In this document: piece by piece, positions 4,825 to 64,000 of the stretch
Layout of the letters: the number at the start of each line of letters is the position of its first letter
Position numbering within the stretch: position 1 is the first letter of the stretch
NCBI RefSeq assembly: GCF_016097555.1
Contig: NC_054699.1
Coordinates: 6,024,102 to 6,088,101, forward strand
Source: Gigantopelta aegis
Lineage: Eukaryota > Mollusca > Gastropoda > Neomphalida > Peltospiridae
Length of the DNA stretch: 64,000 nt
Reading direction: 5' to 3'
Made by a program: the position numbers and the translations under genes
The notes under the pieces: generated by a model
What the model was told of the DNA's origin: nothing
Databases searched by the model: none
Seen by the model: only the letters and a program-made list of their open reading frames with translations

Positions 4825-5004
4825 CTATCGATACATATCAAATAACATATATTCGAAGAATGTGAACGATGGCGTCTGATCCCTCAGAAAACTGTCGGAA
4901 GAATTGAACTCGTCAAGCTCCCGAACACAGTATTTCTCAACCGCTGTCACAAGGTCACCGACTGTCCATTGCAGAGACTCAATAAGAGCAATCACTTCTT
5001 CAAT
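4825..5004 (-). CDS. PARG: PARG exon 12 (C-terminus and stop)
   Basis: Residues 1322-1380 and TAG. LQWTVGDLVTAVEKYC matches human KLTVGDVYKLLLRYY, the last conserved helix. The tail FEYMLFDMYR is specific to this gene. Acceptor tgttttcag. Confidence 0.9.
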   Translation of the reverse strand: MEEVIALIESLQWTVGDLVTAVEKYCVRELDEFNSSDSFLRDQTPSFTFFEYMLFDMYR

Positions 5005-11000: not shown

Positions 11001-14000
11001 CCCACTGTCGCCACTTCATGGGCTACTCTTTTCGATTAGCAGCAAGGGATCTTTTATATGCACCATCCCATAGACAGGGTAGTACACAGCCTTTGATGCA
11101 CTAGTCGTGGTGCACTGGCAGGGATTGATCCCACACCGACCGCGCATTGAGCGAGCGCTGTACCACTGTGCTACATCCCGCCCCCAGCTATAAAAACTGC
11201 AGTAACATGCCATCTCTACATCTATTGCCAGTATCTATCGCCAGTCACAGCATCTCTACATCTATCGCCAGTCACAGCATCTCTACATCTATCGCCAGTC
11301 ACAGCATCTCTACATCTATCACCAGTCACAGCATCTCTACATCTATCGCCAGTCACAGCATCTCTACATCTATCGCCAGTATCTATCGCCAGTCACAGCA
11401 TCTCTACATCTATCGCCAGTTACAGCAATACATGCACTGTTTACTTTTCACTTTCAAGTTTCAGGGACAGGAAATAAGTTGAATGAAATGCGTGTTTTAA
11501 TTGCTTGTTCAAGTTTCGTGGTAGTTAATCTATTAGTTTTTAAAAAAACTAAAATTAAACTGACCTGCTCAAGTCTAGGATCATCAAAAGTGTAGTAGTG
11601 CATGCTGGGAATATGGACTTCGCTAGCTGCTATCCACTGCAACATGCACTTGAGCTGGGGGTCACCACAGAATGCCCCACACCCCCAGTTTCCAGTCGCA
11701 AGAGGAAGTCCTCGACAGCGGAAATGTTTCTGCAGAGAAAAAGAAAACAAATTAGGTCGACATAATTTAGAATACTCAATCAATACACCAGGGCGATGAA
11801 AACGTAAAACCATCGTAGGCTACGACGTCAATATGGTGTGTGCTATAGGGTGTATACTACCAAATCAAATCGGATTATCCCATAGATGACAATAGTAATG
11901 TATGTGGTTAAAGTGATGAAAACGTAAAACCATCGTAGGCTACGACGTCAATATGGTGTGTGCTATAGGGTGTATACTACCAAATCAAATCGGATTATCC
12001 CATAGATGACAATAGTAATGTATGTGGTTAAAGTGATGAAAACGTAAAACCATCGTAGGCTACGGCGTCAATATGGTGTGTGCTATAGGGTGTATACTAC
12101 CAAATCAAATCGGATTATCCCATAGATGACAATAGTAATGTATGTGGTTAAAGTGATGAAAACGTAAAACCATCGTAGGCTACGGCGTCAATATGGTGTG
12201 TGCTATAGGGTGTATACTACCAAATCAAATCGGATTATCCCATAGATGACAATAGTAATATATGTGGTTAAAGCGATGAAAACGTAAAACCATCGTAGGC
12301 TACGACGTCAATATGGTGTGTGCTATAGGGTGTATACTACCAAATCAAATCGGATTATCCCATAGATGACAATAGTAATGTATGTGGTTAAAGTGATGAA
12401 AACGTAAAACCATCGTAGGCTACGACGTCAATATGGTGTGTGCTATAGGGTGTATACTACCAAATCAAATCGGATTATCCCATAGATGACAATAGTAATG
12501 TATGTGGTTAAAGTGATGAAAACGTAAAACCATCGTAGGCTACGACGTCAATATGGTGTGTGCTATAGGGTGTATACTACCAAATCAAATCGGATTATCC
12601 CATAGATGACAATAGTAATGTATGTGGTTAAAACTCCTATCTGCAGCGCATCAATCGATATAAATGCCACAGATATAAATACTACCACCCCTCACCCTTA
12701 AAGTGAATCAGAAAACATTGGGGGTCAAGCTGCTCATTTCTGAGATAACGGGTAGCATCTATGACTAACCTAGTTCCGCACAAAATTCTAGTACTTTTTT
12801 TTTATAAGTACCCCATACATGTTTTAAGCACAAGGCTACTTGACACAGTGGTACTAGATGAAATAAAATGGCATACATTTTTTGCCCAGATGAAACTATT
12901 TTTTTTTACAAACAACATACAACCAACATAGTCACATTTATCACCATCATAGGACTTGTGGTGTTCAATTCGGTGCACTTCCAACTTTGATCCAGCCGGA
13001 AGTTATTTGGTTTTATCATCCATTAAAGGATTTTGTAGGAGATATTGCTGGCACTATAATTTGCGATATCTTCTGCGATATCTCCACAGGAGATATCGCT
13101 TCTTATAATCTTGATTGGTCAAATTTTAATCACAAGACAATGTTTTGTTACATCACAGTGTTTGTTTCAGTGCTAAACCAACCATTAGTGACGTCACGCC
13201 ACTGCCGTTCTGCTAGTTAACGAGTCTACCGCTGACATTCAACCCACAGTACTGACATTGTTTACAACTGTCGCAAATGAAAAAATTTATAATGGATGAT
13301 AAAAAGAATACCCCCCTCGTGTCTTGTGATATCATAATTTATCAGCACTTGTTGATAAAAGTATAAAATCCTCGGCAAGCCTCAGATTTCATACTTTTAT
13401 CAACTCGTGCTGATAAATTATGATATCACAAGACACTCGGGGAGTATCCTCTATTAGTCCTACCGTACCTATAGTGACGTTTTAGCCTACGATGGTTTTA
13501 CGATTTCGTAGCGCTAAAATAACTTTGAAAATCCCTTGCCAGGTTTATATTTTTAATTCTTAATTTTAACACATTTGTAACAAAGAATCATACTGGATGT
13601 TTGAAAAAATGTGGGGACTAAAATCACCAATTTATTAATGTTGTATATTCAGTGACAAATCTCGACTTACTTAGAGGTCTGAATACGTATCACAAATGGA
13701 ATACTAATAAATTATTTAAAGTTACATTCTCTGGTTACAGTATTATAACATCATGTACAAATGTGAAATACAAGCTCAAATGCACTTTTGAAAAGGTTGT
13801 GTGTGTTCGCTATGAACGGATATCGTCAAACGTATATGCTTGATTCGTCGCCTGTGCCGCTATAGCTCGGCAAAGCACAAACGACAGCCTGTTGTCAGTT
13901 TCAGTTAACACGTGCGTTTGCAGATTTCAAATTGTAGGGTTCAAAAAAGTAAAAGAGAAATCTTGCGCTGTACGAAGAATGTTTGGTTGAGGATACGGTA

Positions 14001-17000
14001 CTAGAGTCTTTAGTTAAAACCGGTTTGACAACGTATTATCAACAGTCGTACCTTCCTATTTCAGAATTGATATTTTATAAAGTGTTAGTAGAACTTTAAA
14101 AGTTTAGTTTGTATACTAGTAACACATTAATTATGTATATATTTTTAAAATAAAATATACTAAAGTAGGCAATGAACGTTTTCACTTCTTAATTTTACGT
14201 GTAAAAATCGACAAATTCAAATAAATATTATTTCGTTTGGAAAGGGTAAAGTTGGGGGGGGTTGTTTAACGACATCAAAGATAAAGCATATTGATTTAAT
14301 AATCATCTGACCCCATACAACCGTTAATAAATTGTGTTGAGTGCGTCGTTAAATAAAACATATCCTATCCTTCCTTCCATCTGCTGTTGGATGTCTAACA
14401 TTTGGTAATTTTGACATATAATCTTAGAAAGGAATCAGTTGCATGTGCAGGGGAAGGGTATTGGAGGTCGAAACCCTTACTTGTCCAAGCTTTAAAAAAC
14501 CTGAAATGTATTTTTTGGGGGAGCATGGCCCCATATAAACTTCGCTCAACACAGTCTATAACCCCAACCCCGCTGAAATCCCTGCACACACGCCTTGGAA
14601 ACCCGCTACATTTTTTTTTAGCAAGGGATCGTTTATATGTACCATCCCACAGACAGGATATCACATACCATGGTCTTTTTGTATACCCGCCAATGGGGAT
14701 CGATCCTAGACTGACCGCGCATTTCCAAAAAACACCTTTTTAGGTCTAAGTAATGAATAAAAATAACATATAGTCTTGAAAAATGTTACGTAAATCGAAC
14801 ACAGTACCCTCTGTGAGATCGGTACGAGGCCATCAAAAGTGTTCCACTTTCAAAATCATGGCTTTGTTTTTGACCTGGATAAGCCAGCGTAGTGAAACCA
14901 ATGCGGAGTGCGGCGTCATATATGCACCAAACGTAATTGGATTTTCTGTTCTATATGCTTAAATAATAAAAATATTTCAGGGAATGTAGTTTTAACAATA
15001 AAAGTTGAAATAATCTTTATACAAAGCTAAAACACTTTTTACTATACTTAAATAACGTTAATTTCAAAGCATTCAATCTACAATGTAAACAATTATTTTA
15101 TAATTAAGAAAAAAGAAGCTAGAATCATACAAAAAGCTAAAAAAAACACCTATTTTAAATTTTAAAAAGGTAAAAACAAGAAAGAAAAAGAAAGAAATAC
15201 ATCTTCCTTAAAGTCCCTGACCCTAGATATTAGCCAATGAAAAATAGTTTTCAATATTACAGTCTTTTACTGTTAAATGATAATTTTTAGCAAAATCAAA
15301 TGTGTTGTCATGTCATGTCATGTCATAGGGTTTTACGTGCACATTCAGAACAAGCTGTTGTAGCGCACGCCTGTCGTGGGCACAAGAGCCGGCCTTGGTC
15401 AGCTCCTCCGTCCATGACAGGAAAGAAATGTGTTGTTGGTAATCCTGGTATTTGTAATAGCTCTAACTTAACTGTATGTGAAAAACAAAAACAGTACATG
15501 CCTAGAAAATAACCACAGTTCATACACTTTGTGCCAAACCAAATTCCATGGCTTCTTAAAATAATTTGTTTTAGTATTTTAAACCATTTTCAGCAATTGT
15601 CAATAAAATATGATATTACTAGTGTAACACTGTCTTGATGCAAAATGCCGATCTCTTTCGTGCGTTATCTCAAATGGTAAAAATAATAATTATCATCCTA
15701 TTTTCATTCAACTCAAAATTCCATGACTTTCCTGACCTGGAAAATGACATTTATTTTATACAAATTCCTTTACTTTTCGAGGAATTCCATGACCAAACTA
15801 AAAATTCCATAACTTTCCAGGCCTGTAAAATGACATTTATTTTATACAAATTCCTTTACTTTTCCAGGATTTCCATGACCAAACTAAAAATTCCACGACT
15901 TTTCTGACCTGGAAAATGACATATTGTGACAAATCCCACAACTTTCCAGCATTTCCATGACCCAACTCAAACAATTTCTTGAGTTTCCAGGTCTGGAAAA
16001 TGACATTTTTTTCTTTCATTCCACAACTTTTCCAGGATTTCCATGACCAAACAAAAAACAATTTCATGATTTTCCAGTACTGGAAAATAACATTTATTTT
16101 ACAAATTCCATGACTTTTCCAGGATTTCCTTGACCCGTATGAACCCTGACTTGAGACAGGGCTTTAAATACTTCTACTAGAATTCAATAAATGAGACAGT
16201 TTCACAGTTAGCCATCAATCCTTACCTTGGGGGGAGACGAGTCATCACAGACATTGAGAACACTTTTCAAAATCTCATCTGCCATGTTCTCGGCAAGTAA
16301 CTGAACCCTCGGCAGCGGAACGTCGAGAGTGTCAACAAACTCATCATCATCACCACGACCATCATCAGAACCACCTGCAGACTCGCGTCGTCTCATCCGT
16401 TCCATCTCATCCTCGGTCATGTCCTGTACGGCGAGCAGTGCCGAGTTGGTGATGTCCCATGCAAGGGAGGCGGCGTATGAAAGAAGATTCGGGTGATTAA
16501 GGCAACAAGCGCTGAAGTCGAGACCCGCGTCGCGGTAGATGATGCCGATTGCCTGCTGGATGATGTTGTTGGCAAACGTGTCCGCCAGGTCTTCGATCTC
16601 GTCCACGCTGTGGTAGCGGCCAAGCCGGTCGAACTCCTCCTGGAACTCGCGCCCGACTTTCTTGGGCAGGGGGAACCAGTGCTCGGTCTCGGAACACGTG
16701 CTGTCGGATCGCACATGCCGGTCGTAATGCTGGTGGTGATGTCCCCCACAGCAGCTCTTCGACCTGAGACTCTGTCGTGGGCTGCAGAAACTGCTGTTCA
16801 GCAACTCTCCTTCCAGATTGGCCAGAGTCAGGTCGCGGAAGCCACTGCTACGCCGGGACCCCGTCGTGCTGGTCCCCGTGTGGGCAGACATGATGAGTAA
16901 GGGTGGGATAGAGGTGTCTGCTTTCATCAGCTCCTCGGCAAACCTCGACAAAACGGGATCTCTGAATCCACAAGAGCTCCTGCGACGGCTGGTGGGGAAA

Positions 17001-20000
17001 CTGCTCCATGAGCCACGGCGAACACTTTCCTTGTTGAGCACCTGCAGAAAGTCGTCGTCCGTCCTCAGAGATTTCAACTTTCTGTCGTCTTTTGAATACG
17101 GCTTAGAAACACAGTACGTCTTGAGCGACAGACTGACACTGATGTGACAAGGCTCGCTGCTCCGGCGTTCATACGATTTGATCTGGCGTCGACCTTCGAC
17201 ATTTAGGAATGCATTCGTTAAAGTTTCTCTCGACAAATGTTTGGTGGGGATTCCAAAACTGGAAAAAATGGCTGATTCTATCACTGACTTGGAATCGACC
17301 ACTTCTTCCTGGCATTCCGTTCCCAGCGGTAGAGAGTCACTGACACTAGAAACACCGTCACTCATACCTTTGCACGAACTCTTCACGCTACCGCACAACT
17401 TAGACTGGTTCCCGTGCTCCGCATGATGGGAGAGAGACTGAAAAACCTGGTCTACAATTATGGCTGCTGCCTCCTGGTAGCTGACTTGAATTCCAGCGTT
17501 CTGATTCCTGTCCACGACAACATGCTCAGAGCTCTTAGGAATGGTACAGCTTGGGGTTTCGGTACGTACACCCGTTTCTTGACCTGAATCCGCTGCTGGG
17601 GAAGAGGATACCGGAACAAAACCCGATGTCTCGCCTGCTGCGATGCTAGACAAAGCTTTCTCACTTTCGGACTCCGACAATGTCTTTTTGTCTCCTCTTT
17701 GAGAGGCCGGTTCACTGCTGAACGAACAGGCAGAACTGGCAGACACAGTCAAATTAGCAGACAGCTCTCTCGGCGTCTGGCTTGCGCCGAAGTCGTGAGA
17801 GAGACTTTGTGACGAGAGATTTCCTAAAAGTCCAGCAGCGTAGTCACTGGAAACAGTGAGCAACACATCCTGCACAATCTGGTCAGCGAATAAATGGTAC
17901 GACTCGTCCTCTGGAAGACTCAAATGAGAAGCCGAAATGGCACTGTCCACGGATGCAGATATATATTTGAAAATCAACGCTGCTTCCATCAGAGCAGAAG
18001 TCATCACAGTCTGCATCAAATAACTGGCATAAATTTCAGTGGCATTAGACGATTCCGATTTAACACCCGACGTGACTTTCTGGGGACTGGGTCTACACGG
18101 ATAGGGCTTAACAATGCTGTCTGGCAGAGGCTCGACGTCAAACGTCAGCATCTGGGGATCCCGATGGGCAGCCACGGAGATTCCCTCCTGCATCAAATGA
18201 CTGACGAGGTTCTTCGCGAAGTTGCATATGACCGGCTGAAAGCCGTTCTCGTGGATCGTCCGGTGCTGTTTCAGTTTTTCATTCTTCAGGTACGACTCGT
18301 AGAACTCCTCGAGGTCGGAACTCAGGTCGGATGAACTCCGTTTGGTGCTGGTGCTGCTCCTCCCGGAGATGTCGCTCAGGTTCGAACTCCTGCGACGGAC
18401 ACACGACACCTTGTGGCTGTAGTTGACGTCCAAGAGGTCAGAGCTGGCGTTCTGAGAACCGGCGACAGGAGAGATCGGCTGCCGTCTTTCACCGAAACTC
18501 CTGCCAGAATCGAGCAGAGGTGTATCGCCAGGGGAGCTGGACGCTGACACGCACACGACTGGCTGGTCGGGCGGAGGTGGGCCAATGTCCGTTGGTTTGT
18601 CCGAGCTGGTCGCTAAAGCAGGTCTTTCTAAGTGGTGGTCAGAATGGTTAGTCTGCTCGAGGCAGGAACTTACTTTGGATGCTGGTTCCGCGAACAGTGA
18701 AATGGCAATGTCGCACATTTGCTTTTGGTTTTTTCCTAAAATGGTACACGCAAAAGAATACACAAATAAATTTAAATAATGTTGAAAAACATAATGGTCT
18801 ATTCACAATTATCTACATTTTTATAATCATACTTGTAAAAAACAAAATTAATTCTTTTTTTTAATCTTTTTTTTTTATACCTTTTTTCATCTAAAAGCAG
18901 TATGCAAACATTTAAAATTTTATATTATCAAATTTAAAAGAAAAACAGTTTGAATCTTATGTTAAACATGATTTTGTGAAGACTATATGAAGGAAGGAAA
19001 TGTTTTATTTAATGACGCACTCAACATATTTTATTTACAGTTATATAGCATCAGACATATGGTTAAGGACCACAAAGATATTGAGAGAGGAAACCCACTG
19101 TCGCCACTTCATGGGCTACTCTTTTCGATTAGCAGCAAGGGATCTTTTATATGCAACATATAGGGGTAGTACATGCCACGGCCTTTGATATACCAGTCGT
19201 GGTGCAATGGCTGGAACGAGAAATAGCCCAATGGGCCCACTGACAGGGATCGAACCCACACCGACTGTACATCAAGCGAGTACTATACCAATGGGCTATG
19301 TCCTGCCCACTATACCCAGTTGTGGGCCATTGATTGTGATTATGAAGAACCCCAATGGGATCGCTGAGGGGGATCGATCCCACAACCTAAGCACCACAGT
19401 GCGAGCGCTCAACCAACTGAGCTAAAGGCGGTGCCACACAATACGAACGTCTCGTCAGGCCTCCGACAACTGAATATTTATCGGTTACGCAAAAATAAAT
19501 TCAGGTAACCCATTTTTTTTTTGCGTAACCTGTTACGTCCATGTAAATAATATGCTAAGTTTAATGCGCAAAGGAAGATAGGATATGCTAAATTAGATCT
19601 GCAATGTTATGACAACGCCATGTGTGTGTGACATCATTAGAGACTCTGAGCGGGACGTAGCCCAGTGGGAGAACGCTCGCTTGATGCGAGGTCAGTCTAG
19701 GGTCGATCCCTGTCGGTGGGCCTATTGGGCTATTTCTCGCTCTAGCCAGTGCACCACGACTGGTATATCAAAGGCCGTGGTATGTGCTATTCTGTCTGTT
19801 GGATGGTGCATATAAAAAGATCCCTTGCTACTAATGGAAAAATGTAGCGGGTTTCATCTCTATGACTGTGTCAAAATGACCATATGTTTGACATCCAATA
19901 GCCGATGACTAATAAATCAATGTGCTCTAGTGGTGTCGTTAAACAAAACAAACTTTCTTTTTTTCATTAGAGACTGAATCTGGACTCTAAAAGTTTTATA

Positions 20001-23000
20001 AGCACGGACCCTACTCGTACGAGAATAGCCAAATGATAAGACAACAATACGATTTCATTGGTTTCTATGTAATCGGTTATTCACGAGGCTATCCTCGTAC
20101 GAGACACTTGTCTCGTGTTGCCTTAAGTCATGCCTGGGAAAGTCACAGTGGCAACCAACACCGAAACTTCAGTTCATCGGAGCAATGTTAACGTCCGGAT
20201 TTGCCCCTGGTAATTTCTAACACAGCCCTCACTAAACGATGTGAAAAAAATACCTGGACTTTCTTCCTGTTCAAAGCTGCCCATGGCCGACTGGAAATCC
20301 TCATCCATGGATAGGTTTTCGGGCTCAGCCTGTGATACGTCCTCTGTTGGTAGACAGAATCCGACCAAAGCTTTGTTCACTTCCCGCAATATGCTGTGCA
20401 GCTCGTACTGCCATTTACTACAACCGTTGTAATTGATGGCGTCGATCGCACACAAAATAGTTTTCAGGTTGTTCTCAGAATCTCTCTGAAAATAAGAATT
20501 TTTTGTGAAGTAAATTGTGATTTCATGAATGGCGTCGATTGCACAAAAAATAGTTTTCAGGTTGTTTTTAGAATCTCTCGGAAAATAAGAAAAATAAATT
20601 GTGTTTTAATTAATGGCATTGATTGCACACGTTGTTTTCAGGTTGTTTTCAGAATCTCTCTGAAAATGTTAAAAAAGTAAATTATGTTATTTGCGGCAAT
20701 CTTCATAATTAATGGTGTCAATTACACATAACATCGTTTTCAGTGTTATTATGAGAATTTCTCGGAAATTGAGACAAAAAGTTACTTATGTTATTGGCAG
20801 CAATCTTTGTCATTTATGGTGTAATCAATGCACACATTGTTGTTTTCAAATTAGTATCGGAATCTCTCAAACCCACATTCTCCGATTGTTCTTTTCCCCC
20901 CATCCCAACCAGTACCCCACAACTAATATATAAAAGATTATGGTATATGCTCTTCTGCTGTGGAAAAATACATATAAGAGATTTCTTGCTGTTGGTGAGA
21001 AAATGTAGAGCATTTCCTCTAAGACTATATGTTAGAATTATCTAACAATTAACATCCAATAGCAGATGATTAATAAATCAATGTGTTTTAATGGTGTCAT
21101 AAAAAAAAAAATCATAATTAAAAAAAAATAAAGATCAACACACACCTCTGCAGGATCTACAAAGTCTCCTCCGTATTCTAGATCAGCAGCGTAACCGTAG
21201 TGACTAGAAAACTGTTCAAATCCACTCATCACGATTGCCTCGTTTTCTTCCATTGATTCCATAAACAGCAGCGATGCTATCAGTTCGGGACACTCGCAAA
21301 AACGGATTTCCTCCTGACACAATCACAAAAAGGTAATACAGACTGAGTAACATAACATATCGCTTGGTAAAAGTTCAAAGTGCACTTGCCATTGATAATT
21401 AATTAAGGTGACAATATTGGTTGTCAATTTTTTTTCATTTTACCTGGACAACAAATGAATACAATGTTTTAATACAGAGTAAAATATAACTGTGTGCTTG
21501 AAAGTATGGGATACCTGTAAAACAAAGTATACAATTCTGTGCAAAACTACCGGTAGGTGGTGTGAACATATCCTCTTTTATTACATACCTATTAAATCTT
21601 ACTACAGTGATAAAGACATTTTCAAACCGTGTGATAAACTACCGGTAGGTGGTGTGAACATATCCTCTTTTATTACATACCTATTAAATCTTACTACAGT
21701 GATAAAGACATTTTCAAACCGTGTGATAAACTACCGGTAGGTGGTGTGAACATATCCTCTTTTATTACATACCTATTAAATCTTACTACAGTGATAAAGA
21801 CATTTTCAAACCGTGTGATAAACTACCGGTAGGTGGTGTGAACATATCCTCTTTTATTACATACCTATTAAATCTTACTACAGTGATAAAGACATTTTCA
21901 AACCGTGTGATAAACTACCGGTAGGTGGTGTGAACATATCCTCTTTTATTACATACCTATTAAATCTTACTACAGTGATAAAGACATTTTCAAACCGTGT
22001 GATAAACTACCGGTAGGTGGTGTGAACATATCCTCTTTTATTACATACCTATTAAATCTTACTACAGTGATAAAGACATTTTCAAACCGTGTGATAAACT
22101 ACCGGTAGGTGGTGTGAACATATCCTCTTTTATTACATACCTATTAAATCTTACTACAGTGATAAAGACATTTCAAACCGTGTGATAAACTACCGGTAGG
22201 TGGTGTGAACATATCCTCTTTTATTACATACCTATTAAATCTTACTACAGTGATAAAGACATTTTCAAACCGTGTGATAAACTACCGGTAGGTGGTGTGA
22301 ACATATCCTCTTTTATTACATACCTATTAAATCTTACTACAGTGATAAAGACATTTTCAAACCGTGTGATAAACTACCGGTAGGTGGTGTGAACATATCC
22401 TCTTTTATTACATACCTATTAAATCTTACTACAGTGATAAAGACATTTTCAAACCGTGTGATAAACTACTGGTAGGTGGTGTGAACATATCCTCTTTTAT
22501 TACATACCTATTAAATCTTACTACAGTGATAAAGACATTTTCAAACCGTGTGATAAACTACCGGTAGGTGGTGTGAACATATCCTTTTTTATTACATACC
22601 TATTAAATCTTACTAGAGTGATAAAGACATTTTAAAACCGTGTGATAAACTACCAGTAGGTGGTGTGAACATATCCTTTTTTATTACATACCTATTAAAT
22701 CTTACTAGAGTGATAAAGACATTTTAAAACCGTGTGATAAACTACCGGTAGGTGGTGTGAACATATCCTTTTTTATTACATACCTATTAAATCTTACTAG
22801 AGTGATAAAGACATTTTCAAACCGTGTGATAAACTACCGGTAGGTGGTGTGAACATATCCTCTTTTATTACATACCTATTAAATCTTACTACAGTGATAA
22901 AGACATTTTAAAACCGTGTGATAAATTTATTTTGTATTACACATATGTGCGATCTGGATCAGAACTTGTAAATGGGGATTCCCCTTTTTAAATTTTTACT

Positions 23001-26000
23001 GACATCAGCGCCTTTTTATTACTGACGTCATATATGATTTAATAATTATGTCACATCGTATTTGAAACATTACACAAGACTGCCACAAAGTATGATTCTT
23101 AACGTTACGTAAATCCATGAAAGAAGGATTGATTAATAGATTTAACAAAGTTATGACGTTAAATTAAAAACTGTTTTTGTAAAACATAAAAGAAGGTATG
23201 TAATAAATACAGAACTTAATAAAATAAACTTATGCAATAAATAGGAAGCGAAAACAATGTATGTGAAGTTCTGTATATATATATATCAGGGGTGGGAATT
23301 GGTGAACTGTAAAAAAAGAGGAAATCTAAGAGGGAAATTCTTGAAATCATATGTTAAAATTTGGGCCATCTGACATATTTTGGAGGAAAGGACAATTAAA
23401 ATGCAAGAAAACGCAATGTTCCATGAGAAGAAAACAGCCGATCAGAGGAGAATCTCTACCCCTGATATCTTTAACATGATCCATGAAAGTTTCCACTTTA
23501 TTCAGTTAAAACTTTGAGGGATGGGTTGGAATATTCATAAACTTGGTTGATATATTACATATACCCCGGTAGTATTTTGTTTAGCCACATGTTAATATTG
23601 TCACCTATGGGAGTGTATTAGTTATAGTTCAACCAGAAATAATTCTAGTGTAACGTCAACAATATAATCCAATAATATTACTGTTTTGACACAAATTGCA
23701 AATATCTTCCTGTGTTATTTTTAATGGACAAAAATAAATTAATGAATCAATTTTATTTTTCATAATTAACTGTACAACTCCATAACCCTACATATGAAAA
23801 GAAAAAAGAAAGAAAGAAGTTTTATTTAACGATGCACTCAACACATTTTATTTATGGTTATATGGCGTCAGCCATATAGTTTAGGACCACACAGATATAG
23901 AGAGAAGAAACCCGATGTCGCCACTTCATGGGCTGCTCTTTTCGATTAGCAGCAAGGGTTCTTTTATATGCACCATCCCACAGACAGGGTGGTACATACC
24001 ACGGCCTTTGATATACCAGTCGTGGTGCACTGGCTGGAACGAGAAATGACCCAACATAGGAGTTAATATCCAGTCCTCGAAATTGGCTCCACAATTAAAA
24101 TGTGTCGAGTGTGCATCATTAAATAAAACATCCCTTCCTTTGAAATTTACATCAACCAGCAGTATCGCTATAAAAAGCTGTGGTAAAACTGTTCTGCAAC
24201 TGCTTTGTTTCCATTATCAGGTATTTACTTTGTTATTTGTACTAAATTACCACTGAAAGATGATTTGAATTTCGAGGTATGTAAATATCTAAACCTTTTT
24301 GCACCCTCTAGTTCCTGCAAATTCCTGCATCCACCCACGATATGCAAGCTTACAGTTTCCCTACCTGAACTTTACCACGCCCGAGAACACCTCCTCCAAT
24401 ATAGCGGTTTGCAAAGTCAACCTGTGAATAGAAGAAAGAGGATACAGAAATATTAATAATATAGCGGTTTGCAAAGTCAACCTGTGAATAGAAGAAAGAG
24501 GATACAGAAATATTAATAATATAGCGGTTTGCAAAGTCAACCTGTGAATAGAAGAAAGAGGATACAGAAATATTAATAAAACAACTGACACTGAACTAAT
24601 ATTTTTCATTAATATGGTCTACTTGTATTATTATTTTTTTTTACACAGTATTTTTTTCTAATTTTACGTTTTAGTATTTAGTATAAAGTAAAGTCATTTT
24701 AAAAAGTCTTGAACAACTCCTTTGATATTGCTATCTGTAAATACATTTATTTAACAACTGACAGCAATTATGTTTTGGTTAATGCAAAATTAATGTAAGG
24801 CAAAAAAAAGAAGAAAAAAAAAAAAAAAGTGCTCTCTGTTCAGACTAAAATTCCTGAATTGATGCGGTGATGCAGCTTTTTTTGTTTTTGTTTATTTTAA
24901 AGCATGGATTGCACAGAAAAGGTGGCTATATTTGATACCAAAATAAGGAGCATATTTAAATTGAAATCAGAATGCACATCCTAGTTCATGCGCGGTGGCA
25001 TTTTGGCTCTAAATACGGTTTACGTCATAGCAAGAAAAGCCTGGCAAAAAATGTTGATGCGTGCGGGTCAAAATAGACGCGTACGCTGACCAGAGACCAG
25101 AAATTTATTTTGTTTGGTCTAATTATGCCAATCCGTGAACACTCTCATCATAAATGCTTTGGTTGATCTAAATGATATTATGTCATTTAAAAAACTTTAC
25201 AAGCAAGGTGCAATAAGTTAACTACATGTTATTTGTACACTTGAGGTGTTTTTAAAAGACCTTAAAAAAACATCGGAGTCTCCACTTTAACATTTTTAAA
25301 GCGCATGACCTCATATGAAGTTATATGGGAGTATACTACCAAATCAAATCCCATAGAAGACAATAGTAACATATGTGGCTAAAACTCCTACCTGCAGCGT
25401 ATCAATCGACATAAATGCCACGGATATAAATGCTACCACCCCTCACACTTAAAGTGAATCACAAAAAATTGCTAGAGCAGGTTTGACTATATCTGTATCT
25501 CCATATCAATGTTATGATGTTATTTGGTACATTCATTTACTTGATACGTTTGATGTATAATTAAAACCATATTGTACGGTAGGATTTTGGGCTCCCCAAC
25601 CCTGACACTGCCATTGATTCAGGGATAATACTACTAAAATATTATAATAATTACGGAAGGAGAATCTACCTGGATTCCATCAGAGCGGATATCTTCCAAG
25701 TTGCCATAACGATAAACAGGAACAGGGCACAGTGCAACTGTGGACGTACGTAAGTCTTCCAATGTGGGCAACCTCTTGGGTTCAATAACCTGAAAACATC
25801 ATCATCATTGTCATCATCATCATCAGATAAACTTCACTAAAACCAGAGGCATACTCAGGAAGGAAGGAAAATGGTTTATTTAACGACGTACTCAACATAT
25901 TTTATTTACGGTTATATGGCATCAGATATATGGTTAAGGACCACACAGATATTGAGAGCATGGGCTACTCTTTTCGATTAGCAGCAAGGGGCATGCTCAG

Positions 26001-30600: not shown

Positions 30601-32760
30601 CACTTAGAACCAGATCAATGATCTTCGGCAGGGTCGACTGCACAAAGCACTTGCTTTCTTCCACTGGGCAGTTGCATTGTAAGAACTCAAACAGGCCATA
30701 CCACACGAAACTGAAGTCAATCTCGGAATGTCTGTCTTTGGATCTCACAACTGGTTTACCGTATGAAATGTAAACAAAGAACATTTAGCATTTTGACATC
30801 TCTTATATACTAAGATAAAAAAACCTTTTAGGAATTTTAATTTTAGTAAATGATCTTAAATAACTGAAAACTCATAACTTTCAAAGCGAAATTAAGACAC
30901 CAGATTTAATTGATGCATCATTTGTCAGTACAAGTAACAGGCGATTTTCAATACAAAACTGAAAGTCGACACCTGTGCCCATGACAGGCGTGTGCTACAA
31001 CAGCTTGTTCTGAATGTGCACATTAAAACCTATGACGTGACCTGACCAGAACAAAATGAAATGTGTAACTGTCATATCATTGAAACTGGGGAGTTAAAGT
31101 ACAACAGAGTAGTATCAAATATACTGACATCAAAAACCTTTATACTGAAGTCAAACATATTTATACTGCTATCAAATACCTTTATCTGAGGTGATGACAT
31201 CGAAGTCGTTGGTCTGGTAGCCAGCCTGCACCGCAGTGTGGATGTCCTGAACACTGTAGACGATGTCGTCCAAGTTGTAATCGTCACTGACACACATGCT
31301 CCTCAGACCCACGAGGAGATGTCGGATGTCAGACCATGCCTGAAGGTTACACGGAAACGGCAGACGATCGGTCTGCATTGCCAAATTGTTCATCCTAAAA
31401 GGGATATTCCATAATTAAACAATGATTGAGCAGGATTCAAGTTCTAATCTCACATTTTAAAAACATATTTTAAGGATAGCTTTGGTGAACATCGATTTGA
31501 TTTATTAATCATCGGCTATTGGATGTCAAACATTTGATATTTTTTACAGATAGTCTTAGAGAGAAAATCCGCTATATCTTTCCATTAGTAGCAAGGGACC
31601 TTTTATATGCACCCAGTGTTTCTGCCAGAAATTTTTTGGGGGGTGTGGCACTGTGGAATTAAAAATGTACGTGTGTGCTGAATGCAACCACAGTAAACAG
31701 GGGGTATAGGGATCTCCCACAAATTAAGAAAATGGGTGGCATTAAAAAATTAAAATAGTAACGTGTGTGCTTAATGTTGCAAAATCACACAGTAAACAGG
31801 GACTCATTAATGTTGTCCCACATAGTAATGATAAGACTCATTAATGGGTAGCATTAAAAAAACCACATAGTAATGATAAGACTCATTAATGTTGTCAAAA
31901 TCACATAGTAATGATAAGACTCATTAATGTTGTCAAAACCACATAGTAATGATAAGACTCATTAATGTTGTCAAAACCACATAGTAATGATAAGACTCAT
32001 TAATGTTGTCAAAATCTGCAAAACATTTGGGTATGGCGCCATCCCTGTTTTATCCTCTGGCAGAAACCCTGGCACCATACCACAGACAGGATAGCACATA
32101 CCACAGCCTTTGATATACCAGCCGTGGTGCACCGGATGGAACGAGAAATAGCCCAATGGGCCCACCAAAGAGGATTGATCAAGCCCCCGATACATTTATT
32201 AGTCAAAGACTAAATGTTGTCGCCATTTCATATGAAAATTAGGCTGAGTCCTGATAAACATAAGGGAACATTATGTTTTCAAAACTTTTATTAGCAACAC
32301 TTCTGATCCATTGAAAATGGGTGGTGTCGTGATTAAATCATCAGGCATAAGGCTGGTAGGTAAAGGGTTCGCAGCTCGGTACCGGCTCCCACCCAGAGCG
32401 AGTTCTTAAGGGTTCAATGGGTAGGTGTAAGACCACTACACCCTCTTCTTTCTCACTAACAACTAACCAACTGTCCTGGACAGACAGCCCGAATAGCTGA
32501 GGTGTGTGCCCAAGACAGTGTGCTTGGACCTTAATCGGATAGAAGCACAAAAATAAATTGAAATGAAATGAATTGAAAATGGATTAGCAATTACTGTTTA
32601 ATGTTTTAAAATTGTGCAGCAATCTCTAAAACTTGCAATGCAATACTGAGCCAAATGTTCCCTGAAATTTTTTTTTTTAAAGAGTTGTTTAATTTCACCT
32701 GTCTGTCAGTACACTCTCAGTGGCCTCCTCAGCCACCTCCATCGCTTCCTCACTTGACAT
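4825..32760 (-). CDS. PARG: Poly(ADP-ribose) glycohydrolase with a giant insert in the catalytic domain (12 coding exons)
   Basis: PARG hydrolyses the ribose-ribose bonds of poly(ADP-ribose) and reverses PARP signalling in nucleus and cytoplasm. Coding exons on the minus strand: 32699-32760, 31180-31394, 30553-30750, 29091-29226, 27429-27528, 25670-25789, 24365-24421, 21146-21313, 20254-20485, 16226-18735, 11565-11729, 4825-5004. All have GT/AG borders and the phases join to 1380 codons plus TAG. The family signature is intact: VDFANRYIGGG (278-288), seven residues, then QEE (296-298; EE matches human E755/E756). EEIRF, AIDAINY, REVNKALVGF and ATGNWGCGAF (1277-1286) follow in PARG order. The long vertebrate N-terminal regulatory region is missing; the start is fixed by an in-frame TAG two codons upstream. 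Oddity: residues 430-1266 come from a single exon with no PARG counterpart known to me and lie between REVNKALVGF and ATGNWGCGAF. Family assignment is very sure; the joined transcript is inferred from splice phase. Confidence 0.96.
5090..5840 (+). repeat. SINE with second type of tRNA head, split by a nested SINE
   Basis: Head ggatttagctcagtcagttg and the TGAGGTGTTTGCG region at 5090-5280; the body resumes at 5605 and ends in a long A-run at 5816-5838. The break is filled by the reverse-oriented SINE at 5281-5604. Confidence 0.88.
5281..5604 (-). repeat. Nested SINE with target-site duplication
   Basis: Complete reverse SINE: tail tttatttaacgacacactca, core, head ctgggctacgtcctgcc. It is flanked by TGCTGCATTAGGA at 5268-5280 and again from 5605, a 13-bp duplication of the host SINE. 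Confidence 0.93.
5848..7387 (+). mobile_element. Tc1/mariner DNA transposon, decayed (intron 11 of PARG)
   Basis: Terminal inverted repeats CTGAACAAAA..AAGAAACTTCCG flank the element, with TA on both sides. A transposase frame runs 6164-7189 (342 codons): helix-turn-helix region NNLRKRAISMLDAGMLTEDV, first Asp in LFSDESRFSL, last acid in KSPDLNPIEHVWD. Two in-frame stops, at 6398-6400 and 6806-6808, break an otherwise continuous frame. The middle block reads FQHANATSH where Tc1 proteins have QDNARPH, so the second catalytic Asp is lost. Inserted at the A-tail of a SINE. Confidence 0.93.
7505..7776 (+). repeat. Second SINE family (ACCGGCCTCGGTGG head)
   Basis: Head gaccggcctcggtggtgttg, then ccggtaccggttcccaccca, body tgtcctggacagacagccca, tail aagttcaaatgaaatg. 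Related copies at 27789 and 32319. Confidence 0.88.
8120..8412 (+). repeat. tRNA-derived SINE, near full length
   Basis: Head gtgacgtagcccagtggtaa, B-box ggatcgatccc, core, and tail gagtgcgtcattaaataaaa, followed by CCTT-rich sequence. Confidence 0.93.
8441..10150. repeat. 61-bp tandem array, about 28 copies
   Basis: Unit aattttaaactccatattca..gaatgaatgaatgttt repeats with almost no change. Three units (near 9142, 9569, 9935) carry tagggtc for tacggtc. The last unit runs directly into a SINE tail (10123-10200) beginning with the same gaatgaatgaatgtttaa. In PARG intron 11. Confidence 0.98.
10123..10200 (-). repeat. SINE tail (ACCCCAGCA type)
   Basis: gaatgaatgtttaacgacac then cccagcataaaaatacat and ggctattgagcgtcacc. 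The same end is seen near 26560, 42041 (plus strand) and 61341. Confidence 0.7.
10304..10610 (-). mobile_element. LINE ORF2 tail fragment (RNase H end, Nimb/I-like)
   Basis: Minus-strand frame of about 101 residues with GEWQSSYRRCRKDELVL, RIGHTYLMHSFILKKD and CEHCQCTLTVRHTLVECDHL. The RIGHTxLTH plus C-x2-C-x8-H-x4-C pattern is the C-terminus of I/Nimb-type non-LTR retrotransposons. It ends at a stop at 10304. Clade is from memory of the motif. Confidence 0.75.
10700..10828 (+). mobile_element. LINE ORF2 tail fragment, opposite orientation
   Basis: Frame WQDDWDGAVTNKLHCVKPVL then GEWQSSYRQCRKDEVVL overlaps in content with the minus-strand fragment at 10304-10610, but on the plus strand. The two form an inverted pair about 90 bp apart. 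Confidence 0.7.
10891..11184 (-). repeat. tRNA-derived SINE
   Basis: Reverse copy from ggaaatgttttatttaacga to ctgtgctacatcccgccc, with a short gap in the core. Confidence 0.92.
11213..11430. repeat. 27-bp tandem repeat
   Basis: About eight units of cacagcatctctacatctat cgccagt, two with a shortened form. Confidence 0.95.
11565..11729 (-). CDS. PARG: PARG exon 11 (ATGNWGCGAF block)
   Basis: Residues 1267-1321. ATGNWGCGAFCGDPQLKCM aligns with human ATGNWGCGAFGGDARLKAL, and YYTFDDPRL with YFTFGDSEL. This lines the ADP-ribose pocket. Acceptor tttctctgcag, donor gtcagt, phase 0. A 120-bp tandem array begins about 60 bp upstream of the acceptor. Confidence 0.96.
11791..12630. repeat. 120-bp tandem array, 7 copies, containing a transposon end
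   Basis: Unit starts gatgaaaacgtaaaaccatc and ends gtaatgtatgtggtta; copies differ at only a few bases. The first 40 bp are the left inverted repeat of the element whose right end is at 13473-13515. Starts about 60 bp upstream of the PARG exon 11 acceptor. Confidence 0.97.
13012..13305. repeat. MITE-like insert with short TIRs
   Basis: ttttatcatccattaaa at the left is mirrored by ttataatggatgataaaa at the right. Inside is the palindrome gcgatatctcc..ggagatatcgc. Confidence 0.5.
13306..13448. repeat. Near-perfect hairpin element
   Basis: Arms of about 59 bp: gtcttgtgatatcataattt and aaattatgatatcacaagac, separated by a 24-bp loop. Typical of a palindromic MITE. Confidence 0.8.
14262..14376. 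repeat. Rearranged SINE tail pieces
   Basis: A reverse tail (gtttaacgacatcaaagata) abuts a forward tail (gtgttgagtgcgtcgttaaa). Confidence 0.55.
14393..14726 (-). repeat. SINE interrupted by unrelated DNA
   Basis: ctaacatttggtaattttga at left, agggatcgtttatatgtacc and gatcgatcctagactgaccg at right. About 150 bp near 14440-14596 do not belong to the SINE. Confidence 0.7.
14727..15699. other. PARG intron 10, no feature seen
   Basis: AT-rich intron sequence without coding signal or clear repeat, apart from a cctgtcgtgggcacaag block (15370) similar in reverse to 30975-31005. Confidence 0.4.
15700..16140. repeat. Degenerate repeats of a hAT-like MITE end
   Basis: Phrases such as aattccatgacttttccagg and gacctggaaaatgac recur about six times, ending in gacccgtatgaaccctg. 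The last block resembles the CAGGGTTCATACGG end common on hAT-type MITEs. Lies 85 bp after the donor of PARG exon 10. Confidence 0.65.
16226..18735 (-). CDS. PARG: PARG exon 10: 837-residue AKAP-like insert inside the PARG fold
   Basis: Seen: one open exon of 2510 nt, acceptor ccattttag, donor gtaagg, phase 1 in and phase 0 out, making residues 430-1266. It is rich in Ser, Arg and acidic residues and richer in GC than its surroundings. Basic phosphosite-like motifs: RRRSS 543-547, KRSSS 561-565, RRSS 953-956, RRGS 1002-1005, RRRSS 1013-1017, RRSS 1057-1060, RRRES 1211-1215. Amphipathic segments: AKNLVSHLMQEG (603-614), ADQIVQDVLLTV (713-724), AAIIVDQVFQSL (853-864), ANNIIQQAIGII (1151-1162), AWDITNSALLAV (1188-1199), ADEILKSVLNVC (1248-1259). 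Known: RII-binding helices follow A-xx-[IV][IV]-xx-[AV][IL]-xx-hydrophobic, as in AKAP-IS AKQIVDNAIQQA; AKAP11 and SPHKAP are largely encoded by one giant exon. Inference: an AKAP11/SPHKAP-like scaffold exon now part of PARG. Its exon status is strongly supported; AKAP homology is tentative. Confidence 0.85.
18989..19309 (-). repeat. tRNA-derived SINE
   Basis: Full-length reverse copy from gaaatgttttatttaatgac to gggctatgtcctgccc. Confidence 0.93.
19310..19434 (-). repeat. tRNA-like SINE head
   Basis: Reverse complement reads ggcaccgcctttagctcagt tggttgagcgctcgc, then gggatcgatccc: A-box and B-box of a tRNA-like head without a following body. Confidence 0.6.
19460..19570 (+). repeat. Dispersed repeat, partner at 57590
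   Basis: ttatcggttacgcaaaaata and gcgtaacctgttacgtccat recur in reverse at 57590-57725. Unclassified. Confidence 0.5.
19648..19966 (+). repeat. tRNA-derived SINE, near full length
   Basis: Head gcgggacgtagcccagtggg through tail gctctagtggtgtcgttaaa. Located in PARG intron 9. Confidence 0.93.
20005..20125. repeat. Small palindromic element
   Basis: actcgtacgagaatagcc (20013-20030) is mirrored by ggctatcctcgtacgag (20087-20104). Confidence 0.5.
20254..20485 (-). CDS. PARG: PARG exon 9
   Basis: Residues 353-429 plus one base. AIDAINY and REVNKALVGFCLP match PARG AIDALHF and RRELNKAYCGFLRP. It then runs about 33 acidic residues past the human loop before donor gtattt, phase 1. Decayed copies of its acceptor and first codons lie just upstream (20486-20880). 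Confidence 0.94.
20486..20880 (-). repeat. Tandem decayed copies of the PARG exon 9 acceptor and first codons
   Basis: On the PARG strand the motif agagattctgaraacaacct followed by a GTGCAATCGACGCC-like string recurs about four times upstream of exon 9, roughly every 80-100 bp. The copy ending at 20657 keeps CAG and reads the exon frame for 17 codons before TAA. Copies near 20580 and 20763 have CCG in place of CAG. Confidence 0.85.
20909..21107 (+). repeat. Degraded SINE
   Basis: acatataagagatttcttgc, tctaagactatatgttagaa, atgattaataaatcaatgtg; no head. Confidence 0.75.
21146..21313 (-). CDS. PARG: PARG exon 8 (catalytic glutamates)
   Basis: Residues 297-352, beginning EEIRFCECPELIASLLFM, the family EEIRF-x-NPELI block with both catalytic Glu as the first two residues. 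FEQFSSHYGYA matches human TEQYSEYTGYA. Acceptor tgtgtcag, donor gtgtgt. Confidence 0.96.
21544..22926. repeat. 92-bp tandem array, about 15 copies (PARG intron 7)
   Basis: Unit contains ctaccggtaggtggtgtgaa and cctattaaatcttactacag. Copies at the right end share variants (cctttttt, actagag). Each unit on the PARG strand has a strong 5-prime splice-like ATAG|GTATGT. Confidence 0.97.
23281..23470. repeat. MITE, hAT-like ends
   Basis: atatcaggggtgggaatt is mirrored by aatctctacccctgatat. About 190 bp, no coding capacity. Confidence 0.65.
23811..24141 (-). repeat. SINE with extra forward tail piece
   Basis: Reverse SINE to about 24055, then gtgtgcatcattaaataaaa of a forward tail. Head missing. 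Confidence 0.85.
24365..24421 (-). CDS. PARG: PARG exon 7 (GGG half of the catalytic signature)
   Basis: A 57-nt exon for residues 278-296, VDFANRYIGGGVLGRGKVQ. It carries the diphosphate-binding GGG and the Gln of the QEE triad; the two Glu are in exon 8. The acceptor and the first 22 bases of the exon belong to a 60-bp unit present three times (24400-24579). Acceptors at 24482 and 24542 are therefore identical and would add 20 or 40 open in-frame codons. Confidence 0.95.
24400..24579 (-). repeat. 60-bp unit x3 carrying the PARG exon 7 acceptor
   Basis: Each unit on the PARG strand holds a pyrimidine tract, ttctattcacag, and the exon start GTTGACTTTGCAAACCGCTA. Copies are essentially identical. 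Exonised units would read VDFANRYIINISVSSFFYSQ, 20 codons without a stop. Confidence 0.97.
25330..25470. repeat. Diverged relative of the 11791-13515 element
   Basis: tatactaccaaatcaaatcc, gacaatagtaacatatgtgg and ctcctacctgcagcgtatca match 12080-12710, with one copy of the unit instead of seven. Confidence 0.8.
25670..25789 (-). CDS. PARG: PARG exon 6
   Basis: Residues 238-277, the first strand region of the macrodomain, leading straight into VDFANRY of exon 7. Acceptor gttttcag, donor gtagat, phase 0 on both sides. Confidence 0.9.
25857..25990 (-). repeat. SINE tail half
   Basis: tggtttatttaacgacgtac to cttttcgattagcagcaagg. Confidence 0.85.
26393..26558. repeat. 82-bp direct duplication
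   Basis: acattttacccaagtgcatg..cacgttctgtcaaactgaaa occurs twice in a row with three differences. Confidence 0.95.
26560..26635 (-). repeat. SINE tail fragment (GAATGAATG type)
   Basis: gaatgaatgaatgaacgaat expanded, then gtttaaatacaccagcataa. Confidence 0.55.
26690..27016 (+). mobile_element. LINE ORF2 tail fragment (Jockey/I-like)
   Basis: Frame ends RLRTGHCRLRSHHTRIKLVP, CHCEQAAETAEHILQYC, then a stop at 27016. LRTGHxxL followed by C-x-C-x8-H-x4-C is the usual C-terminus of Jockey/I-group ORF2. 5-prime truncated, in PARG intron 5. Confidence 0.75.
27429..27528 (-). CDS. PARG: PARG exon 5
   Basis: Residues 204-237. AQIAKLRMILNYFERI corresponds to PARG PEKLKTLFCYFRRV. Acceptor tctttcag, donor gtacag, ending in phase 0. 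Confidence 0.9.
27580..27625. repeat. AT and GATA microsatellite
   Basis: (AT)n about 15 units followed by (TAGA)n. Confidence 0.9.
27789..28022 (-). repeat. Second-family SINE
   Basis: Reverse copy: cgtgcttatatccaattaag, ctatctgggctgtctgtcca, agccggtaccgggctgcaaa, ggcttaaccactgcacc. Confidence 0.9.
28087..28398 (-). repeat. tRNA-derived SINE
   Basis: Reverse full-length copy, ending in its head at ctgggcaaggtcccacc, where the MITE at 28399 has inserted. Confidence 0.9.
28399..28768. mobile_element. 370-bp TIR element with 9-bp target duplication (Mutator-like MITE)
   Basis: TIRs of about 60 bp: catcttcataaatcaagact at left, agccttgatttatgaagatg at right, including cgttcc and cagccttgatacatgt. 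GGTCCCACC flanks both sides (28390-28398, 28769-28777). Long TIRs plus a 9-bp duplication fit Mutator-like elements. No transposase. Confidence 0.85.
28852..29038. repeat. Palindromic MITE
   Basis: aaaagtgttttggaaataac is mirrored by gttatttccaaaacactttt, arms about 40 bp. Confidence 0.75.
29091..29226 (-). CDS. PARG: PARG exon 4
   Basis: Residues 159-203. RILACAFLCVFPER and YLNRINFTAFF match human LLANAFFCTFPRR and YPDINFNRLF. Acceptor acacaag, donor gtattt; the last Leu codon is split with exon 5. Confidence 0.92.
29545..29975 (+). repeat. Dispersed repeat shared with 7800-8060
   Basis: ccctatatagctgtt and acaaaaatgggagcctgta occur in both places with a longer middle here. Unclassified. 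Confidence 0.5.
30206..30494 (-). repeat. tRNA-derived SINE
   Basis: tttgtttcacaccaccacta, core, then ggatcgatcccaaatcgacc; head partly lost. Confidence 0.9.
30553..30750 (-). CDS. PARG: PARG exon 3
   Basis: Residues 93-158, acceptor accag, donor gtcagt. STLPKIIDLVLSVEEFIP matches the PARG accessory-domain block written TLPKIADLALCLPN in human PARG. Confidence 0.92.
31180..31394 (-). CDS. PARG: PARG exon 2
   Basis: Residues 21-92, acceptor ttttag, donor gtattt. Begins MNNLAMQTDRLPF and contains the helical stretch WSDIRHLLVGLRSM. It belongs to the all-helical region before the macrodomain. Phases on both sides fit exons 1 and 3. Confidence 0.88.
31496..32180 (-). repeat. SINE split by a TIR element
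   Basis: Tail half 31496-31613 and core half 32072-32180 (agacaggatagcacatacca) are interrupted by the element at 31617-32068. Confidence 0.85.
31617..32068. mobile_element. TIR element with internal 38-bp repeats
   Basis: Ends agtgtttctgccagaaa and tctggcagaaaccctgg are inverted copies; gcacc flanks both. Units of cacatagtaatgataagact cattaatgttgtcaaaa recur about five times at 31801-32015. Related ends at 60510-60740. hAT-like ends, superfamily uncertain. Confidence 0.7.
32319..32573 (+). repeat. Second-family SINE
   Basis: ggtggtgtcgtgattaaatc, ctcggtaccggctcccaccc, tgtcctggacagacagcccg, tail aattgaaatgaaatga. Confidence 0.9.
32699..32760 (-). CDS. PARG: PARG coding exon 1 (start codon)
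   Basis: Encodes residues 1-20 plus two bases, starting MSSEEAMEVAEEATESVL, acidic, and ends AG|gtgaaa. TAG lies in frame six bases before the ATG. An acceptor-like tttgtgttacag sits 16 bases before the ATG, so a 5-prime non-coding exon probably lies upstream; I could not locate it. Confidence 0.85.

Positions 32761-39897: not shown

Positions 39898-64000
<24,103 letters not shown>

Follow-up and report, generated by a model that had tools for sequence, protein, structure and literature searches.

The question raised by this locus is what an 837-residue insert, encoded by a single exon, does inside the catalytic domain of a poly(ADP-ribose) glycohydrolase (PARG). The gene lies in a 64,000-nucleotide stretch of contig NC_054699.1 of the gastropod Gigantopelta aegis (positions 6,024,102 to 6,088,101 of the forward strand), here called the window, in whose coordinates all features are given. 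The motifs and predicted helices of the insert point, with moderate confidence, to a PARG whose long conserved insert is a predicted A-kinase-anchoring and VAP-binding module, the latter through FFAT (two phenylalanines in an acidic tract) motifs, which would hold protein kinase A (PKA) and poly(ADP-ribose) hydrolysis at the surface of the endoplasmic reticulum (ER).

Exon 10, which encodes the insert, is a real in-frame exon inside the PARG macrodomain, as the original prediction, made from this DNA alone, had claimed. The gene consists of 12 exons on the minus strand (32760-4825), and its product of 1382 residues has no internal stops and is identical (100%, full length) to that of NCBI LOC121369852 from G. 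aegis (P0002). Exon 10 (18735-16226, minus strand) is 2510 nucleotides long, is flanked by an acceptor (...TTTTAG) and a donor (GTAAGG), and has phases of 1 in and 0 out that fit both exon 9 (20485-20254) and exon 11 (11729-11565). The longest stop-to-stop frame of the window is found here (18802-16208, minus strand, 864 residues; the runner-up has 252), and the GC fraction of the exon is 0.52 (0.60 at codon position 3) versus 0.38 for the window. Searched against its own genome, the exon 10 protein gives a single match, namely, exon 10 itself. The distance from ...NKALVGF to TGNWGCGAF amounts to 882 residues, contributed by exon 9 (34), exon 10 (837), and exon 11 (11), and the insert exceeds its host domain in size, again as predicted. 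Neither a direct joining of exon 9 to exon 11 nor a separate gene for exon 10 is supported, since skipping breaks the frame (in silico, a frameshift with a stop at codon 454) and relatives hold all parts in one protein. Some of these whole proteins come from contigs barely longer than their coding sequences (P0019, 1521 residues, longest contig 4649 bases; P0030, 1329 residues, 456 member sequences, contig 4385 bases), which suggests spliced transcripts containing both halves and the insert. The exons are as follows.

32699..32760, minus strand: exon 1, with the ATG start at 32760; product identical to P0002
31394-31180, 30750-30553, 29226-29085, and 27528-27429, minus strand: exons 2 to 5, N-terminal and helical PARG_cat_N region (Pfam match at residues 123-234)
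25670..25789, minus strand: exon 6, where the PARG macrodomain begins
24365..24421, minus strand: exon 7, VDFANRYIGGGVLGRGKVQ, catalytic signature
21146..21313, minus strand: exon 8, EEIRF... (remainder of the GGG-QEE signature) through the GYA loop
20254..20485, minus strand: exon 9, macrodomain to LREVNKALVGF, plus a 34-residue linker holding a phospho-FFAT-like motif
16226..18735, minus strand: exon 10, the 837-residue insert (residues 432-1268)
11565..11729, minus strand: exon 11, second macrodomain part, starting LATGNWGCGAF
4825..5004, minus strand: exon 12, PARG C terminus and stop codon

The exon 7 acceptor and the first 21 nucleotides of the exon (VDFANRY, in the active site) lie within a perfect 60-bp tandem repeated three times (24398-24579). 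Two upstream acceptors in this tandem are in frame and would insert 20 or 40 residues into the active site.

The PARG fold is found in the G. aegis product, which matches both PARG Pfam families (PF05028 and PF20811), with E values of 8.1e-66 for PARG_cat_C (222 bits, cut-off 26.3) and 1.1e-22 for PARG_cat_N (81 bits, cut-off 25.6). The VDFAN, GGG-x-QEE, and GNWGCGA signatures are all present, and among 35 insert-bearing rows they are retained in 33, 33, and 32, respectively; the rows that depart from the catalytic signature are P0007, P0014, P0022, P0038, P0039, and P0048. In the public model of P0007 (Lottia), an 18-residue repeat replaces the VDFAN exon and is probably an intronic tandem repeat read as an exon.

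The original prediction spoke of a new PARG architecture and proposed a protein search for long orthologues. The architecture is real, and the search found the whole arrangement in single proteins of relatives; it is no snail novelty but, judging from these sequences, is common to lophotrochozoans and deuterostomes. The insert retrieved 16 proteins, of which 13 have a PARG domain and 3 are insert fragments, and the 12 matches with species names are all molluscs. A query taken from the end of a clam insert gave 17 proteins, all of them with a PARG domain. The first macrodomain part, a query blind to the insert, retrieved 33 proteins, and those of amphioxus, Saccoglossus, two sea urchins, a sea cucumber, Lingula, and a bryozoan carry long inserts in the same position.

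A 33-row tree of the PARG parts puts all 30 insert-bearing rows (613 to 1536 residues) on one side of a branch with support of 99/98; the outside group consists of three insertless rows only (paddlefish, mayfly, and one further row; loops of 10 to 14 residues). Within the insert clade, the deuterostomes are weakly grouped (86/49), Lingula joins the molluscs (91/89), and P0041 is the first to branch. An earlier tree of 25 rows, which included the long-branched bryozoan, gave 89/95 for the insert clade. Rows that were partial, oddly modeled, or devoid of anchor patterns (P0003, P0007, P0009, P0010, P0013, P0014, P0021-P0023, P0028, P0039, and P0047) were left out of the 33-row tree, as were P0048 (long branch) and P0032 (anchor pattern missing). 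The latter, named as a plant protein (Thlaspi arvense), has two animal-like PARG tails, and insect contamination may be guessed. P0041 (1077 residues) has an insert of 613 residues without the phospho-FFAT motif, and its organism could shift the origin of the insert further back.

G. aegis also has a second set of PARG exons, of canonical type, on contig C8; their loop has 13 residues, and an intron is placed at or beside the same point. This suggests that a preexisting intron of a duplicated PARG gene probably took up exon 10, an event that would predate the split of lophotrochozoans and deuterostomes. Additional PARG-like pieces occur on small G000 contigs (C2522:2922-3559, with many stops; C616:10066-11889; and C2964:1209-1642).

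The insert is predicted to be mostly disordered, with helices at seven conserved blocks. The structure model of G. aegis exon 10 has a mean predicted local distance difference test score of 49 and contains 20 helical elements, 7 of which fall on the conserved blocks H1 to H7 (best ten-residue block, 73-83). The features of the insert and of the adjoining linker, in order of residues, are as follows.

20279..20299, minus strand: phospho-FFAT-like motif DFQSAMG (residues 417-423), flanked by acidic residues, loose pattern only
18371..18397, minus strand: RRRSSNLSD, PKA-type site; RRRSS and SD invariant across 16 aligned proteins
18161..18238, minus strand: predicted helix H1 (residues 598-623), PKA-anchoring pattern match at 601
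17933..18052, minus strand: predicted helix H2 (residues 660-699), without pattern match in G. aegis
17816..17905, minus strand: predicted helix H3 (residues 709-738), pattern match ADQIVQDVLLTV at 715
17405..17479, minus strand: predicted helix H4 (residues 851-875), pattern match AAIIVDQVFQSL at 855
17150..17233, minus strand: conserved block SRETLTNAFLNVE...YERRSSEP, containing an RRxS site
16898..16987, minus strand: block RRRSSCGFRDPVLSRFAEELMKADTSIPPL, strongly conserved
16526..16606, minus strand: predicted helix H5 (residues 1142-1168), pattern matches at 1149 and 1153
16427..16492, minus strand: predicted helix H6 (residues 1180-1201), without pattern match in G. aegis
16322..16342, minus strand: second FFAT motif EFVDTLD (residues 1230-1236), preceded by an acidic stretch
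16244..16315, minus strand: predicted helix H7 (residues 1239-1262), without pattern match in G. aegis

The amphipathic PKA-anchoring helix pattern matches the G. aegis insert seven times, versus 1.04 times in shuffled sequences, and five of these matches lie within H1, H3, H4, and H5. In 13 of 15 inserts, the count was reached by at most 2 of 1000 shuffles, the exceptions being the hemichordate (0.028) and the bryozoan (0.236). The density of matches is 0.94 per 100 residues in the inserts and 0.28 in the PARG parts, which are likewise helical. PKA-type sites (R[RK]x[ST]) are about twentyfold denser in the inserts (255 in 33,249 residues) than in the PARG parts (6 in 15,844 residues). A profile of 24 helices (H5 to H7 of molluscs and two of Lingula), searched against 177,635 PDB sequences, retrieved mostly designed repeat proteins through summed scraps; two matches had a stretch that passes alone, and the better of these was the smAKAP peptide (5hvz_C, E value of 0.036). 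The Pfam model SmAKAP matches the hemichordate insert at 4.3e-4 (21.7 bits, cut-off 27). Two PDB matches to the insert as a single sequence (E values of 1.8 and 3.2) were judged to be due to chance.

The FFAT core was defined as [acid][FY]x[D or ST]Ax[acid] within acidic surroundings, with [DES][FY]xTAx[DE] as the strict phospho form, and was counted in 36 rows (P0003, P0009, P0010, P0013, P0021, and P0023 excluded). A phospho-FFAT-like core within 50 residues after NKAxxGF is present in 28 of the 36 proteins by the loose form and in 23 by the strict form, where shuffling would lead to 0.4. A second, conventional core (mostly D/E-[FY]-x-D-A-L-D) occurs toward the end of the insert in 23 of the 36, all of them molluscs or rows that group with bivalves. 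Similar motifs are described for vertebrate proteins: AKAP11 has DFVTA-E and AKAP110/SPKAP, in the naming of that paper, has DFLTASE (PMC3261905), and the colocalization of SPHKAP with VAPs requires its phospho-FFAT motif (PMC10460453). These motifs and the AKAP-like helices go beyond the original prediction, which had pointed to possible control of glycohydrolase activity from beside the substrate pocket; from the sequence features, PKA scaffolding at the ER appears at least as likely.

In the proposed mechanism, the FFAT motifs would tether the enzyme to VAP on the ER, with the first motif switched by phosphorylation, and the helices would dock the dimerization domain of PKA regulatory subunits and hence PKA holoenzymes. 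The anchored PKA may phosphorylate the RRxS sites of the insert. The insert ends shortly before the active-site GNWGCGA loop, where PKA could gate PARG, and cyclic AMP (cAMP) could adjust poly(ADP-ribose) turnover or determine its site. Decay of the catalytic half in jawed vertebrates would have left AKAP11, SPHKAP, AKAP3, and AKAP4.

Parts of this PARG-AKAP link are already contained in two papers of 2024. In human AKAP3, AKAP4, AKAP11, and SPHKAP, the C terminus is formed by the C-terminal half of a PARG macrodomain, whose N-terminal portion seems to have been lost (PMC11377751), and one of the genes presented as cyclostome novelties combines PARG_cat with AKAP_110 (PMC11788884, section 2.5/Table 3 and section 3.5). 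The available passages of both refer neither to an insert within PARG nor to an invertebrate gene. No description of an insert-bearing PARG was found in the titles and abstract starts of papers that join PARG to AKAPs, a search that did not extend to preprints and most subscription papers.

Scans of whole proteins placed AKAP_110 (PF05716) on the PARG tails of two of seven proteins, those of Lingula and sea urchin (profile positions 606-664), and the matches of 16 mollusc proteins, scanned likewise, did not include it. When tails were scanned alone (E values up to 10), AKAP_110 was matched by 18 of 20 insert-bearing tails (best, 1e-5), versus 2 of 8 insertless ones (best, 0.11); the former were hand-picked from 37 with near-copies dropped, and the latter come from six proteins, two of which have two tails. 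The Lingula tail reaches 24.4 bits (cut-off 25). Conversely, the AKAP4 tail, in a working version of its sequence, matches AKAP_110 at 4.5e-68 and PARG_cat_C at 0.012. In working versions of the SPHKAP and AKAP11 sequences, a possible remnant of the N-terminal half of PARG, with the FFAT stretch kept, scores 23.7 and 13.8 bits, versus 4.6 and 5.7 for the best shuffles (470 and 482 of 500 shuffles scored); the SPHKAP version is numbered two off the published F212/T214.

The C-terminal homology draws on PMC11377751 and the Pfam matches, and the shared FFAT core on the motif counts; descent of the AKAPs from the insert-bearing clade, rather than from another PARG, is likely but not proved. On the simplest reading, the cyclostome gene would be this insert-bearing PARG gene and the AKAPs its decayed descendants. 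We think it somewhat probable that bilaterians inherited a PKA-anchored, ER-tethered PARG, which would still be whole in molluscs, brachiopods, echinoderms, hemichordates, amphioxus, and probably cyclostomes, and that AKAP11, SPHKAP, AKAP3, and AKAP4 descend from it in jawed vertebrates, after decay of the catalytic half. Such descent would explain both the half macrodomain that ends these AKAPs and the phospho-FFAT motif near the start of AKAP11 and SPHKAP.

Several results weigh against anchoring, tethering, or descent. Amphipathic-helix patterns are common in helical proteins and nonspecific; two of the seven matches lie outside H1 to H7, the G. aegis versions of H2, H6, and H7 depart from the pattern, and the bryozoan insert has no excess (2 versus 0.94, P value of 0.24). 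Single helices gave no matches in the PDB, and the G. aegis insert alone gave none in Pfam. The phospho-FFAT motif is absent from 8 of the 36 rows (Littorina, Biomphalaria, Mya, Dreissena, P0033, P0041, Lingula, and the bryozoan) and is weak in G. aegis, where position 7 is G. As for descent, the G. aegis exon 11-12 tail scores 18.2 to 18.3 bits against AKAP_110 (E values of 7.7e-4 to 8.2e-4; cut-off 25), and every AKAP-family score available for the PARGs lies below its curated Pfam cut-off. AKAP_110 is unmatched in the G. aegis genome, and the same search is unmatched in control genomes too. Against the middle region of AKAP4, the best domain of the helix profile scores -3.0 bits, a value equaled by 82 of 500 shuffles. 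Profiles of equal size do not separate the two PARG groups on the AKAP4 tail (insert-bearing, 30.2 to 37.1 bits in 20 draws; insertless, 32.7). Without the FFAT stretch, the N-terminal remnant in SPHKAP and AKAP11 falls to 5.7 and 3.1 bits (equaled by 0 and 13 of 1000 shuffles), and with a longer profile it scores 5.0 and 4.2 bits (1 and 6 of 1000); given this weakness, it is a lead only.

The scores below cut-off, the failure of the helix profile on AKAP4, and the unseparated PARG groups would all suit an ancient disordered arm, specific to PARG, that regulates the enzyme by gating it and serves as a docking site for other partners. Its likeness to AKAPs in helices, FFAT motifs, and RRxS sites would then be convergent, and only the general PARG fold would be common with the C termini of AKAP3, AKAP4, AKAP11, and SPHKAP. 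We regard this as rather unlikely, in view of the identical FFAT core in SPHKAP and AKAP11, the unequal AKAP_110 counts in the two sets of tails, the top rank of smAKAP among PDB matches that have a stretch passing alone, and the reported presence of both domains in the cyclostome gene.

A lineage-specific mollusc insertion that chiefly controls access to the substrate pocket, the version of the original prediction, would agree with the intact catalytic signature and with the placement of the insert shortly before the GNWGCGA loop. It appears distinctly improbable, as the insert spans lophotrochozoans and deuterostomes and anchoring-type motifs dominate in it; moreover, the sea urchin structure model has the insert at low confidence and hence no predicted contact with the core. 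An artefact of the gene model, with exon 10 belonging to another gene nested in an intron and PARG spliced without it, has next to no likelihood and was rejected, given that the phases fit on both sides, skipping truncates the enzyme, the NCBI model is identical, and the contigs of P0019 and P0030 carry both halves and the insert, as spliced transcripts would.

Elsewhere at the locus, the introns of the PARG gene contain near-perfect minisatellites at 8441-10150 (61 bp, 28 copies), 11795-12632 (120 bp, 7 copies), and 21544-22925 (92 bp, 15 copies). Transposase remnants (HTH_Tnp_Tc3_2 and DDE_3) occur at 6401-7189, inside the last intron of the gene, and at 34789-35547, both on the plus strand. 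Frames matching an RNA polymerase largest subunit (Rpb1 domains 2, 3, and 7) adjoin the gene at 49992-58908 (plus strand).

If the reading as a PKA-anchoring, ER-tethered PARG is true, it would give the origin of a vertebrate AKAP family, including the sperm fibrous-sheath proteins AKAP3 and AKAP4 as well as AKAP11, a risk gene for bipolar disorder and schizophrenia (PMC11952666), and would account for the half macrodomain in those AKAPs. It would also define a bilaterian enzyme that couples cAMP/PKA signaling and ER contact sites to the removal of ADP-ribose. Two questions become testable, namely, local control of invertebrate PARG activity by PKA and binding of ADP-ribose by the half macrodomains of AKAPs.

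Compared with known systems, the G. aegis gene shares with canonical PARG (PF05028 and PF20811; human PARG structures) the fold, both domains, and the VDFAN...GGG...QEE and GNWGCGA signatures, whereas the spacing from NKAxxGF to TGNWG is 10 to 14 residues in canonical PARG (3 rows) and 613 to 1536 in insert-bearing PARG (30 rows). SPHKAP and AKAP11 have, near their N terminus, a phospho-FFAT core (DFxTAxE; PMC3261905 and PMC10460453) resembling the phospho-FFAT-like core of most insert-bearing PARGs, they anchor PKA (PMC10460453), as is predicted of the insert, and their C terminus shows homology to the second macrodomain half of PARG (PMC11377751). Unlike these proteins, which have seemingly lost the N-terminal portion (PMC11377751), the G. 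aegis product keeps both PARG halves and the signature, and its binding to PKA and VAP is predicted here. AKAP3 and AKAP4 of the sperm fibrous sheath (AKAP_110) also have a PARG-like C terminus but are without the N-terminal half (PMC11377751), and the AKAP4 middle is unmatched by the insert helices. The cyclostome PARG_homolog CGG08 of lampreys and hagfish (PARG_cat and AKAP_110; PMC11788884, Table 3), matched here by description only, is probably the same gene. Where the available text of PMC11788884 treats it as a novelty of domain shuffling, the present analysis suggests a retained ancestral architecture.

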